Assembly (NCBI RefSeq): GCF_023653175.1
Contig: NZ_JAMNXL010000012.1
Coordinates: 1 to 38,261, forward strand
Reading direction: 5' to 3'
DNA: 38,261 nt
Source of the DNA: Erythrobacter sp.
GTDB lineage: Bacteria > Pseudomonadota > Alphaproteobacteria > Sphingomonadales > Sphingomonadaceae
Shown: positions 435 through 17,522 of the stretch, piece by piece
How the letters are laid out: each line of letters starts with the position of its first letter
Numbering within the stretch: the first letter of the stretch is position 1
Position numbers and translations under genes: made by a program
Notes under the pieces: model-generated
Told to the model about the DNA's origin: nothing
Database searches by the model: none
What the model saw: only the letters and a program-made list of their open reading frames with translations

Positions 435-1859
435 ATGACTGCACGCCGGATCGGCCTCTTCCTGGGACCGCTGGCCTTTGCCCTTGCTGCGCTCACCGCC
501 CCGCCCGCCGGGATGAGCGAGGGAGCGTGGCTGGTCGCGGGCCTTACCCTGTGGATGGCCGCCTGGTGGATGACCGAGGCGATGCCGCTCGCGGTGACCG
601 CGATGCTGCCCTTCGTGATTCTCCCGCTGGCTGGGGTATCGGATGCGGAGACGACCGCGAGCACCTACTACTCCCCGATCCTGTTCCTGCTGCTGGGCGG
701 CGCCTTCATCGCGCTCGCGATCGAGCGTACCGGCATGCACCGCCGCTTGGCCCTCGCGATCCTGCGCGCGGTGGGCGCGGACGGCGGGCCGGTGCGGCTG
801 CTGGTCGCCTTCATGCTGACGGCTGCGCTGCTCTCGATGTTCATCTCCAACACCTCGACCACGCTTATCATGATGCCGATGGCGCTGGCGGTGCTGGAGG
901 GGGGATCTTCCGGCGATGACGAGGGCGCGGCGCCGCTCCAGACCGGCATCCACGGCGCGCTGCCGATGGGCATCGCCTTTGCCGCGAGCATCGGCGGGCT
1001 CGGCACCATCGTCGGCTCGCCCACCAATGCGATTGCGGTGGGCGTGCTCGACAAGCTGGCGGGCGTGCGCATCACCTTTGCCGAGTGGTCTCTCTACGGC
1101 ATCCCGCTGGTGCTGCTGAGCGTGCCGCTCGCCGCCTTCATCGTCGCGCGGGTGCAGCGCGTGGCCGGGCATCCCTTCGATGTGGCCGCCGCGCGCGCGG
1201 CGATCGACGGCCATGTGGGCTGGACCGCGCCCGAGAAGCGGCTGGTGCCGATCGCGCTCGTCACCTTCATCGCCTGGGTCACCCAGCCACTGGTCGCCGC
1301 AGCCCTGCCGGTCGGCGCGTGGACCGACGGGACTATCGCCATCATCGCCGCGCTGGCACTGTTCCTCCTGCCCGACGGCACCGGCCGCCCGCTGCTGGTG
1401 TGGCACGAGGCCGAGCGCGCGCCGTGGAGCGTCATCTTCATGTTCGGCGGGGGCCTCGCGCTGGCGGCGGGCATGTCGGCTTCGGGCCTGGCCAAGTGGA
1501 TCGGCGCCGCGCTGCTCCCGCTCGAGGCCTGGCCGCTGGTGCTGGTCGCGCTCGCGGTGACGGTGCTGGTGATCGTGATCACCGAGTTCGCGAGCAATGT
1601 CGCGGCCGCGACGGGCATCATCCCCGTTGTCGCCTCGCTGGTGGTTGCGCTGGGCGTCGACCCGGTGCTGCTCGCGCTCCCCGCAGCGCTGGCGGCAAGC
1701 TGGGGCTTCATGCTCCCGGCCGGCACCGGGCCCAACGCCATTGCCTGGGCGACGGGGCGCATCCGCATCGGCGCGATGGTGACCGCGGGCGCGCTGCTCG
1801 ATGTGGCAGGGGCGGTGCTGATCGTCGCCGTGGTGTGGGGGATCGCGGCGCTCGTCTAG
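435..1859 (+). CDS. DASS/SLC13-family sodium:anion (dicarboxylate) symporter
   Basis: This is a polytopic inner-membrane protein of 474 residues, the usual length for the divalent anion:Na+ symporter family. Two inverted halves each carry a re-entrant-loop signature: SNTSTT at 138-143 with GSPTNAIA at 194-201, and TEFASN at 383-388 with PAGTGPNAIA at 428-437. In characterised members the SNT motifs bind the substrate carboxylate and Na+. The likely cargo is a C4-dicarboxylate or similar anion, but sulfate cannot be excluded. The ATG at 435 follows a purine-rich GGGGGAGAG and precedes the first hydrophobic helix; the frame is open upstream without a plausible start. Its stop overlaps the stop of the convergent nuclease gene by four bases. 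Confidence 0.85.
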   Translation: MTARRIGLFLGPLAFALAALTAPPAGMSEGAWLVAGLTLWMAAWWMTEAMPLAVTAMLPFVILPLAGVSDAETTASTYYSPILFLLLGGAFIALAIERTGMHRRLALAILRAVGADGGPVRLLVAFMLTAALLSMFISNTSTTLIMMPMALAVLEGGSSGDDEGAAPLQTGIHGALPMGIAFAASIGGLGTIVGSPTNAIAVGVLDKLAGVRITFAEWSLYGIPLVLLSVPLAAFIVARVQRVAGHPFDVAAARAAIDGHVGWTAPEKRLVPIALVTFIAWVTQPLVAAALPVGAWTDGTIAIIAALALFLLPDGTGRPLLVWHEAERAPWSVIFMFGGGLALAAGMSASGLAKWIGAALLPLEAWPLVLVALAVTVLVIVITEFASNVAAATGIIPVVASLVVALGVDPVLLALPAALAASWGFMLPAGTGPNAIAWATGRIRIGAMVTAGALLDVAGAVLIVAVVWGIAALV

Positions 1860-15670: not shown

Positions 15671-16375
15671 TCAGGCGTCGTCGCCGAACTCGGCGAGGGT
15701 CTGGAGGAACGGCAGGTTGCTCACTCTGAGGGCGCGGCCCTCGCGGGCGATCACGCCTTGCGCTTCCCAGTCAGACAGCAGGCGGCTGACATTCTCGCGC
15801 GCGAGGCCGGCAAAGGCGCCAAGGTCGCTCTGGTTGGGATCGAAGCGCAGCCGGCCGTCATCGCGCGCCGGATCGATCAGCCGCACCAGCGCGCGGGCCA
15901 GACGCGGGGCCATCGAGAAGGTGCGGTCGCTCTCGATCACCAGATTGAGCTGGCGCACCCGCCGCGCAAGTTCGCGCATCACGCCTGCGGCCGAAACCGG
16001 GTTGGCGGTCGCCGCGGCGAGGAAGGTGCGCGAGGGCAGCAGCAGCACCGATGACGGCACCGCCGCGATCACGGTCGCAGTGCGCGGCCCACTGTCGAGC
16101 ATCGCAATCTCGCCGACCAGTTCGCCGGGCCCGCAATAGTTGAGGATGATCTCGTGCCCGCTGGCGCTGACCATGGTGATCTTGAGCCCGCCGGACAGCA
16201 CCACCACCGCAAAGTCACCGTCCTCGTCGCCCTGCGAGATGATCGGCTCGCCGGGACGCAGGTCTCGGCGGGAGGCCTCGCGCAGCAGCTGTTCGAGCTG
16301 GTCGGGCGCGAGCGCACGCAGCAGCGATTCGGGCGCGAGACGGGCGATGAGATCGTCGAGCGTATCCAACATCAT
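15671..16375 (-). CDS. Crp/Fnr-family transcription regulator
   Basis: A protein of 234 residues. The cyclic-nucleotide-type beta-roll (about 25-125) contains PGEPIISQGDEDGDFAVVV and CGPGELVGEIAMLDSGPRTATV. A long dimer helix follows, then a winged HTH with SDLGAFAGLARENVSRLLSDW, whose recognition helix is E-N-V-S-R-L. The GE-(L/I)-x(10)-R-T pattern in the phosphate-binding cassette is close to true cAMP receptors, so cAMP sensing is plausible. No Fnr-type cysteine cluster is visible at the N-terminus. The start is the first of two ATGs at 16375, after AGGGGG. A CRP-like palindrome lies upstream, consistent with autoregulation. Confidence 0.88.
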   Translation of the reverse strand: MMLDTLDDLIARLAPESLLRALAPDQLEQLLREASRRDLRPGEPIISQGDEDGDFAVVVLSGGLKITMVSASGHEIILNYCGPGELVGEIAMLDSGPRTATVIAAVPSSVLLLPSRTFLAAATANPVSAAGVMRELARRVRQLNLVIESDRTFSMAPRLARALVRLIDPARDDGRLRFDPNQSDLGAFAGLARENVSRLLSDWEAQGVIAREGRALRVSNLPFLQTLAEFGDDA

Positions 16376-16397
16376 GAGAGCCCCCTTCGGTTGGCCG

Positions 16398-16426
16398 AGG
16401 ATAGGGGCAGCGAAAGTCCCCCGCAA
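16398..16426 (-). promoter_or_regulatory. Candidate promoter of the Crp/Fnr gene
   Basis: On the minus strand, TTGCGG (16426-16421), a 17-nt spacer and TATCCT (16403-16398) form a credible sigma-70 promoter. It would start transcription near 16391, about 16 nt before the ATG at 16375 and just upstream of the AGGGGG ribosome site. Confidence 0.5.
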
Positions 16427-16468
16427 CGGCCGACGAGGGGCACGATAAATCGCATCGGCCCGCAAAAC

Positions 16469-16484
16469 CGTGACGGCCATCACA
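16469..16484. promoter_or_regulatory. CRP-like operator
   Basis: CGTGA-CGGCCA-TCACA differs from the CRP consensus TGTGA-N6-TCACA at only one of ten half-site bases. It lies in the gap between crp (minus) and the candidate small RNA (plus). Its centre, 16476.5, is 41.5 bp upstream of base 16518, the start predicted from a GATAGC -10 element at 16506-16511. Confidence 0.5.
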
Positions 16485-16517
16485 GACCGCGTGCGCGCCT
16501 TGCGCGATAGCCGGGGC

Positions 16518-16597
16518 GCGACCCGGGCGGAGGAGCAATTCTCCTCCGCCTCCTAGGCCCACATTCCTGGTGAGAGGGGGTGTGGGCCTCTTTTTTT
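16518..16597 (+). ncRNA. Candidate small RNA divergent from the Crp/Fnr gene
   Basis: A strong intrinsic terminator (stem 16555-16563 with 16581-16589, then seven T) points along the plus strand, yet both flanking genes are on the minus strand, so no annotated gene needs it. Upstream of it are a perfect 9-bp hairpin, GCGGAGGAG-CAATT-CTCCTCCGC (16527-16549), a GATAGC -10-like element, and a CRP-like palindrome at class II spacing. A transcript of ~80 nt would have two hairpins and expose CUCCUCC-type sequence able to pair with ribosome sites. No ORF of note is present. I recognise no named sRNA family. Confidence 0.45.
16555..16597 (+). terminator. Intrinsic terminator with no plus-strand gene upstream
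   Basis: AGGCCCACA at 16555-16563 pairs perfectly with TGTGGGCCT at 16581-16589, and CTTTTTTT follows (16590-16597). On the minus strand the tract would be A, so it cannot serve the Crp/Fnr or SDR genes. Confidence 0.75.
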
Positions 16598-16602
16598 GCC
16601 GA

Positions 16603-17415
16603 TCAGTGGCCGCCGCCGCTGGGATCGGCGAAGTGGTTCGGCAGCAGCGCGTTGACCACGCCGCCATCGACCGTCAGCGTCTCGCCCACCACATAGTCGC
16701 CCGCGCGGCTGCACAGGTAGATCGCGGCTGCCGCCATGTCTTCGGCGGTGCCGATGCGCTTGGCCGGGATGCCGCTGGCGCTCGCGTCAGGCGCGTCCTT
16801 GGCGGCCTTGTTCATCTCGGACGGGAAGGCACCGGGCGCAATCGACGACACCACGATATTGTCCCGGATCAGCCGCGCCGCCATGCGCCGGGTGAGCTGG
16901 ATGACCGCCGCCTTCGATGCCTGATAGGCATAGGTCTCCCACGGGTTGATCCGCTGGCCGTCGATCGAGGAGACGTGGATGACCTTGGCCGGATGCCCGG
17001 CCTTGCCGCCTGCGACCAGCAGATCGTGGAGCTTCTGGGTGAGGAAGAACGGGGTCTTGACGTTCAAGTCCATCGTCCGGTGCCAGCCGGCCTCGGAGAA
17101 TTCGAGATAGGGCTGGCCCCAGGCGGCGCCGGCATTGTTGATGAGGATGTCGAGCCGGGTCTCGCGCGCCTTGAGTTCATTGGCGAGCGCCACCATCCCG
17201 TCCATCTGGCTGAGGTCGGCGGGGATGCCGATCACGCGGTCTGCGCCGAACTCGTCGATGGTGGCCTGCATCTGCTCGACCTTGCGCGCCGAGATGTAGA
17301 CCTTGGCGCAGCCCGCCGCGAGCAGCCCCTCGACGAACATCTTGCCGATCCCGCGGCTGCCGCCGGTGACGAGGGCAATGCGGCCTTCGAGGCTGAAAAG
17401 TGATTGAATGTCCAT
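16603..17415 (-). CDS. SDR-family oxidoreductase (RhlG/3-oxoacyl reductase-like)
   Basis: A classical SDR of 270 residues. It has the nucleotide motif TGGSRGIG at 17-24, NNAGAAWG after strand 4, catalytic Ser in VIHVSSIDG, and YAYQASKAAV supplying Tyr and Lys. The LFSLEGRIALVTGGSRGIGK start and PGAFPSEMN loop resemble RhlG-type beta-ketoacyl reductases. Arg in GGSRG and ISARK suggests NADPH. It is the last gene of a minus-strand group behind two acyl-CoA dehydrogenase genes, which fits a hydroxyacyl/ketoacyl interconversion. A palindromic repeat of 107 bp intergenic separates it from its upstream neighbour, so it may also be expressed separately. Confidence 0.85.
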   Translation of the reverse strand: MDIQSLFSLEGRIALVTGGSRGIGKMFVEGLLAAGCAKVYISARKVEQMQATIDEFGADRVIGIPADLSQMDGMVALANELKARETRLDILINNAGAAWGQPYLEFSEAGWHRTMDLNVKTPFFLTQKLHDLLVAGGKAGHPAKVIHVSSIDGQRINPWETYAYQASKAAVIQLTRRMAARLIRDNIVVSSIAPGAFPSEMNKAAKDAPDASASGIPAKRIGTAEDMAAAAIYLCSRAGDYVVGETLTVDGGVVNALLPNHFADPSGGGH

Positions 17416-17432
17416 TTCAAATCTCTCCGTCT

Positions 17433-17510
17433 TCCCGGGCTTGACCCGGGATCCCGCTCATTTTTTGCCCGCCGCGAGAAAGAAGCGGGGCCCCGGGTCA
17501 AGCCCGGGGA
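17433..17510. repeat. Inverted pair of CCCGGGCTTGACCCGGG elements
   Basis: The 17-mer CCCGGGCTTGACCCGGG at 17434-17450 recurs as its exact reverse complement at 17492-17508. Similarity extends several bases into CCCGCT on the outer-to-inner side. Each copy is itself near-palindromic. The pair looks like a REP-type intergenic element, of a kind I associate with sphingomonad genomes. It lies between two co-directional genes and could form a long hairpin in their mRNA. Confidence 0.7.
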
Positions 17511-17522
17511 GGCGTTTGGGAC

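Follow-up and report, generated by a model that had tools for sequence, protein, structure and literature searches.

The locus raises the question of whether the gap between two minus-strand genes, one for a Crp-like regulator and one for an SDR-family dehydrogenase, holds a small RNA gene on the opposite strand, and whether this RNA is controlled by the regulator beside it. The window analysed here is a 38,261-nt stretch of Erythrobacter sp. DNA, in which the RNA candidate lies on the plus strand of a gap of about 224–227 bases (Table 1). From its start at 16518 it consists of GCGACCC, hairpin 1, a three-base linker, the terminator hairpin, and a T run ending at 16597. According to the terminator scan, the sole terminator in 16000–17200 is the RNA's own, on the plus strand; together with the fold and the gene calls, this confirms the initial annotation, which had reported a plus-strand intrinsic terminator between two minus-strand neighbours. 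Alone, a terminator is weak evidence, since shuffled sequences average 0.5 terminators per scan, and the strongest case against chance is the comparative evidence.

Table 1. Positions in the window of the RNA candidate, its predicted control elements, and the flanking genes
Feature	Position	Strand	Basis or remark
Crp-like regulator gene	15671..16375	-	about 235 aa; Pfam domains, orthologs 65–95% identical
Crp-type palindrome CGTGACGGCCATCACA, centre 16476.5	16469..16484		lies between crp and the RNA gene, which diverge
-10-like element GATAGC, A at -11 = 16507	16506..16511	+	A at constant spacing to the palindrome
Predicted 5' end of the RNA, with heptamer GCGACCC as candidate seed for pairing	16518..16524	+	invariance, unpaired in fold
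Hairpin 1, purine-rich SD-like 5' arm and pyrimidine-rich 3' arm	16525..16551	+	fold, covariation
Intrinsic terminator, hairpin 16555–16589 and T run	16555..16597	+	terminator scan, fold, covariation
SDR-family dehydrogenase gene, convergent with the RNA, outside the unit	16603..17415	-	Pfam

The predicted RNA (16518–16597) folds with an energy of -47.2 kcal/mol (z = -4.9), which is equalled by none of 200 shuffled sequences. In this fold hairpin 1 has 11 pairs, including 9 consecutive perfect pairs GCGGAGGAG/CTCCTCCGC that bear out the perfect 9-bp hairpin noted earlier upstream of the terminator, and the terminator is a 14-pair hairpin followed by CTTTTTTT. With 22 sequences aligned by MAFFT without model fitting, RNAalifold reports 17 pairs, 11 of which have two-sided compensatory changes. 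In a structural alignment of 27 distinct rows, fitted to a model built from 11 sequences, two-sided changes are found in 15 of 22 pairs and 92.7% of cells are paired; none of 500 shuffles reaches any of five measures, and slid versions of the alignment have 46–60% of cells paired. Regarding the separate elements of this alignment, hairpin 1 has two-sided changes in 8 of 10 pairs (84.9% of cells paired) and the terminator hairpin in 7 of 12 (99.1%). At loci L050 and L053 the terminator sequence is quite different, with GCGACCC and hairpin 1 retained. Conserved covarying stems and an intrinsic terminator, the combination looked for in Hfq-dependent base-pairing sRNAs, are thus both present. The RNA structure, like the fixed promoter geometry and the linkage to crp described below, is established by sequence comparison, and the presence of a conserved RNA gene beside crp appears highly probable.

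A protein scan of the named genomes gave 26 crp loci, comprising 23 close orthologs (65–95% identity) and three distant ones (28–32%) that were set aside. Most of the 23 loci are titled Erythrobacter, Porphyrobacter or Erythrobacteraceae, and three (L037, L040, and L045) have a higher name only. With the window included, the palindrome is found upstream of crp in 24/24 loci and the RNA core beside crp in 23 of them, the sole absence being L045, which keeps crp and the palindrome. The stem-loops had been expected to persist in relatives that keep crp, and they do so with covariation. In the whole-genome survey of 114 genomes of the genus, a crp ortholog, taken as identity of 65% or more, is present in 27; two genomes matching at just 30–33% were excluded from this count. 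A match to model R1 adjoins crp in 26 of these 27 genomes (E 1.3e-5 or better), and for the 27th, G085, it was obtained in a smaller search set. Among the 87 genomes that have no crp ortholog, G065 alone matches R1 as strongly (37 bits), and weak matches (E 1.5e-4 to 0.044) occur in another seven. The window's own genome has one R1 match. Relatedness among the genomes keeps these linkage counts from being probabilities, but their pattern points to one unit, and regulator and RNA look to be inherited together as a single switch.

Beyond the genus, model R2 matches 30 of 396 genomes of the order at E 0.001 or better, of which 29 belong to the same family and 11 carry crp. At the same threshold, the window's own genome is the single R2 match among 190 taken from the class, the other 189 giving none. 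The genes on the far side of the RNA vary by locus and include SDR, methyltransferase, EAL, Vut_1, ABC transporter, and symporter genes. The SDR gene is on the RNA side at 11 of the 23 named crp loci, lying ~1 kb from crp in two of them (L033 and L034). Because this other-side gene differs between species, the RNA belongs with crp.

As for the promoter, CGTGACGGCCATCACA agrees with TGTGAT-N4-ATCACA at 10 of 12 positions, a score reached at 2 places in the 38 kb window and in 2 of 2000 shuffles of the intergenic gap. The sigma-70 consensus scan of 16000–17200 reports zero promoters. The coordinates given initially for the GATAGC element (16506–16511), the start (16518), and the palindrome (16469–16484, centred 41.5 bp ahead of that start) all check out. 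Among 28 loci aligned on the palindrome, its GTG and CAC are invariant. An A at -11 is present in 27, which are all those with the RNA, the miss being L045; apart from this A the -10 element is weak, with A at -9 in 22 of 28. The distance from the -10 box to the RNA core, in contrast to this fixed A, ranges from 6 to about 154 nt across the 27 loci with the RNA. The GCGACCC core starts at +1 in 6 of them, one being the window, and further downstream in 21, so that the interval from palindrome centre to core is 41 to 189 nt overall and 59–189 nt in those 21, where a leader of ~18 to 148 nt is predicted ahead of the core. The length of ~80 nt proposed initially is therefore appropriate where the core begins at +1 and too short elsewhere, where the predicted leader is added.

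From a class II Crp promoter one would expect a promoter locked to the Crp site and a leader of variable length, and this geometry (site at -41.5, fixed -10 spacing) is found in all 27 aligned RNA loci relative to a predicted start. The conserved RNA and the fixed geometry support the original proposal, namely that a small RNA transcribed divergently from a crp-like gene is controlled by Crp in class II fashion, and the neighbouring Crp-like protein probably activates the RNA. Likewise, it seems probable that a trans-acting sRNA gene activated by Crp is inherited as one unit with its activator. From this arrangement we infer transcription, dependence on Crp and cAMP, the involvement of Hfq, a seed, and targets. 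The Crp-like protein, probably with cAMP, would bind the palindrome between the crp and RNA genes and, once bound, would activate a class II promoter with its site centred at -41.5, which in the window's species would yield a terminated RNA of about 80 nt. This RNA would act on mRNAs elsewhere, most likely by pairing via its 5' GCGACCC, with the probable assistance of an Hfq-type chaperone.

The palindrome could instead serve the autoregulation of crp alone, with a real sRNA transcribed from an adjacent Crp-independent promoter, which we consider rather unlikely. The retention of palindrome and crp at L045, where the RNA core is missing, fits such an arrangement, as does a weak T-A signal at the mirror distance towards crp (T in 18 and A in 15 of 28 loci). 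However, the class II-spaced A at -11 follows the RNA in 27/27 loci and is absent from the RNA-less one, and its information content is unequalled by any of the first 60 columns towards crp. Also against autoregulation alone is L148 (about 1451–1590, plus strand), a GCGACCC RNA and possible member in another genus: a Crp-type palindrome lies 42 nt ahead of its heptamer, and its 3 kb yield no crp match with E under 0.6. Given the weak mirror-position signal, autoregulation of crp is possible and less marked, so the palindrome that probably activates the RNA may regulate crp as well.

It is very improbable that the structure serves merely to terminate transcription or to attenuate the downstream gene in cis, with no free sRNA. 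The RNA does end in an intrinsic terminator, and the first Pfam-supported gene lies on the same strand (Vut_1) at 2 of the nine SDR-less loci examined (L046 and L048). This gene, however, is convergent at 6 of the nine (L042, L044, L047, L050, L051, and L053), as the next gene is in the window; its orientation is undecided at L049, and L052 and L054 were left out of the count. Moreover, the RNA is kept while the downstream genes differ, the minus strand of the window has no T run after the terminator hairpin, and the 5' heptamer and a second covarying hairpin would be superfluous for a terminator. Finally, a small-peptide gene or a DNA element (protein-binding or repeat) is hardly credible: high identity among the closest relatives, the SD-like purine arm, and an ATG in 13 of 29 rows, several within the terminator stem, might suggest one, but the window core has no ATG, those of other rows are scattered or sit in the terminator stem near the RNA end, the own genome has a single match, and the RNA stems carry compensatory changes.

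For the sRNA gene as preferred here, relatives were sought among all Rfam 15 families at gathering and relaxed E-values, in the window and in its relatives, and none fits, which agrees with the initial statement that the RNA is unrelated in sequence to CyaR or Spot 42. No family reaches its gathering score in the window, 20 related loci give tRNAs alone, and 17 further loci give a single match at E up to 1, which is under its family's cut-off. CyaR and Spot 42 are enterobacterial base-pairing sRNAs under Crp control, and the likeness to them is one of logic, with Crp controlling a base-pairing sRNA; neither, however, is matched by Rfam in the window, and neither is known to sit next to crp in Escherichia coli. 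The sX13 RNA of Xanthomonadaceae (RF02232) shows weak shape similarity in a 116-base search (21.6 bits, E 0.014), but the match is under the 50-bit cut-off and sX13 comes from another bacterial class.

The known sRNAs of these bacteria met in the literature are Sphingopyxis SuhB and a Zymomonas mobilis set. Since Sphingopyxis SuhB has a role in catabolite repression, homology to suhB was considered; a review passage describes SuhB of Sphingopyxis granuli as acting, together with Hfq, in the carbon catabolite repression to which tetralin genes are subject (PMC6563040). SuhB/mmgR and the present RNA are alike as short alphaproteobacterial sRNAs with an intrinsic terminator at the end, whereas suhB loci differ in that their GCC/GGC hairpin is short and a CCUCUCCC-type stretch is exposed. 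Against the Rfam family suhB/mmgR (RF00519), the window scores 13.7 bits at 16509–16604, which leaves it outside the family (cut-off 41). Identity of the RNA with suhB was rejected, as the layouts differ and suhB is found at a separate place in the own genome (G000:C20, 50.7 bits). One place in G011 weakly matches both suhB (29.3 bits) and R1 (26 bits). As for the Zymomonas mobilis set, GCGACCC does not occur in passages from the main text of the article (PMC6970203).

The CUCCUCC anti-SD arm, initially taken as the seed, was ruled out because it is paired and variable in sequence; it is GCGACCC that is invariant instead. The heptamer is present in 22/22 sequences of alignment A1, an invariance that is partly due to selection because the members were found via CGACCC, and model searches independent of CGACCC recovered the same RNA places. 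In the window fold GCGACCC is unpaired (mean unpaired probability 0.98), and among the 29 rows of alignment A4 its unpaired probability exceeds 0.5 in 18, with 11 rows not mostly unpaired. The invariant heptamer thus appears to be the best candidate for target pairing, and its use as a seed together with the involvement of Hfq is, in our judgement, evenly balanced between true and false.

The same heptamer also occurs in a wider set of RNAs from the same bacterial family, which we take to be Sphingomonadaceae. Most of this set (L113, L150–L164, and L219–L248) combines GCGACCC, a hairpin, an ACUU-type linker, and a terminator, and L148 is its sole locus with a Crp-type palindrome just upstream. 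Unlike the crp-linked RNA, many of these RNAs carry a further 5' hairpin. At 12 of the loci, the flanking ORFs include no crp match and the flanks share no neighbour by BLAST, and 15 loci scanned give no Rfam match above cut-off. Model R3, built from 11 wider-set RNAs, has matches with E at or below 0.001 in 90 out of 298 genomes from the family, many of these matches being weak, and finds the window RNA weakly as well (E 2.7e-4). The weak tail of R3 matches is distrusted, since CGACCC is present in just 25 of 30 fetched loci. In its general appearance, the wider group can be described as UGCGACCCGA(A)GGG, a hairpin, a CAACUUCA-type linker, and a terminator, found across a large number of the family's genera, with several copies in some genomes; three genomes hold two or three matches each.

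Regarding the regulator, its Pfam matches are cNMP_binding (72.6 bits), HTH_Crp_2 (55 bits), and Crp (26.8 bits), and the cNMP-binding domain with the Crp-type helix-turn-helix places it in the Crp type of the Crp/Fnr superfamily. The 235-aa start was preferred over a longer GTG-started ORF because matches begin at query residues 1–5 in all 23 close orthologs. In an alignment with a solved Crp-family protein, the recognition helix ARENVSR lines up with SRETVSR, and these residues presumably read TGTGA. Orthology to Escherichia coli CRP is not claimed, since the score against the NCBIfam CRP equivalog PRK11753 (55.9 bits) is far under its cut-off of 266. The window palindrome, being of the TGTGA/TCACA kind, mismatches GTNNCNNNNGNNAC, the binding-site core of Sinorhizobium Clr as given in a part of PMC10127613. 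The class III cyclase domain (PF00211) is found in 7/7 tested crp genomes, window's included, and in 1/5 tested genomes that have no crp.

Strict Crp palindromes number 87 in 20 crp genomes (reversed-pattern control 21) versus 76 in 20 genomes lacking crp (control 28). With no clear enrichment, these counts were dropped as support for regulator specificity; since strict palindromes are hardly commoner with crp, binding of the motif by the protein is unsupported by a larger regulon. Own genome has five such palindromes, and G035 and G066 have two each, one of which is the crp/RNA site. Either the regulator has few sites, or looser sites matter. As for distant Crp-like proteins of other genera (36–46% identity, L166–L184), considered and rejected, palindromes are found by a loose pattern at 6 of 19 loci.

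Hfq is found in 6 of 7 genomes searched, namely in six of six tested relatives, and no match is present in the incomplete assembly of the own genome. As a separate observation, six Erythrobacter-group genomes (G035, G066, G073, G078, G107, and G134) have an Hfq of ~200–260 aa with two Hfq domains in one frame, for example at L249:1333–1989 on the plus strand, downstream of a sigma-54-activator-like gene (named by eye). The literature search found no account of such a two-domain Hfq in the Erythrobacter group.

Most of what is known about Crp-controlled sRNAs comes from enteric bacteria. If the proposed activation of the RNA by the adjacent Crp-like protein is true, this would be a well-supported alphaproteobacterial Crp-controlled sRNA, unrelated in sequence to the enteric ones and physically tied to its own regulator. 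The hosts of the crp-linked RNA include cultured ones, among them Erythrobacter longus DSM 6997 and Erythrobacter sp. NAP1 (L046, L047) and E. oryzae COR-2 (L032), which makes it open to testing, and the common GCGACCC points to an uncatalogued sRNA set in the same bacterial family. A broader and doubtful reading is that the Crp-type regulator has the divergent sRNA as its chief conserved output and that the two are gained and lost together, as a single module, across Erythrobacter, relaying a cyclic-nucleotide signal into post-transcriptional control. The pair would then be a Crp-wired branch of a large family-wide sRNA superfamily, in which one shared GCGACCC seed would mean shared targets.

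Outside the proposed unit, an inverted repeat around CCCGGGCTTGACCCGGG / CCCGGGTCAAGCCCGGG was spotted by eye at 17430–17520, between the SDR and acyl-CoA dehydrogenase genes.
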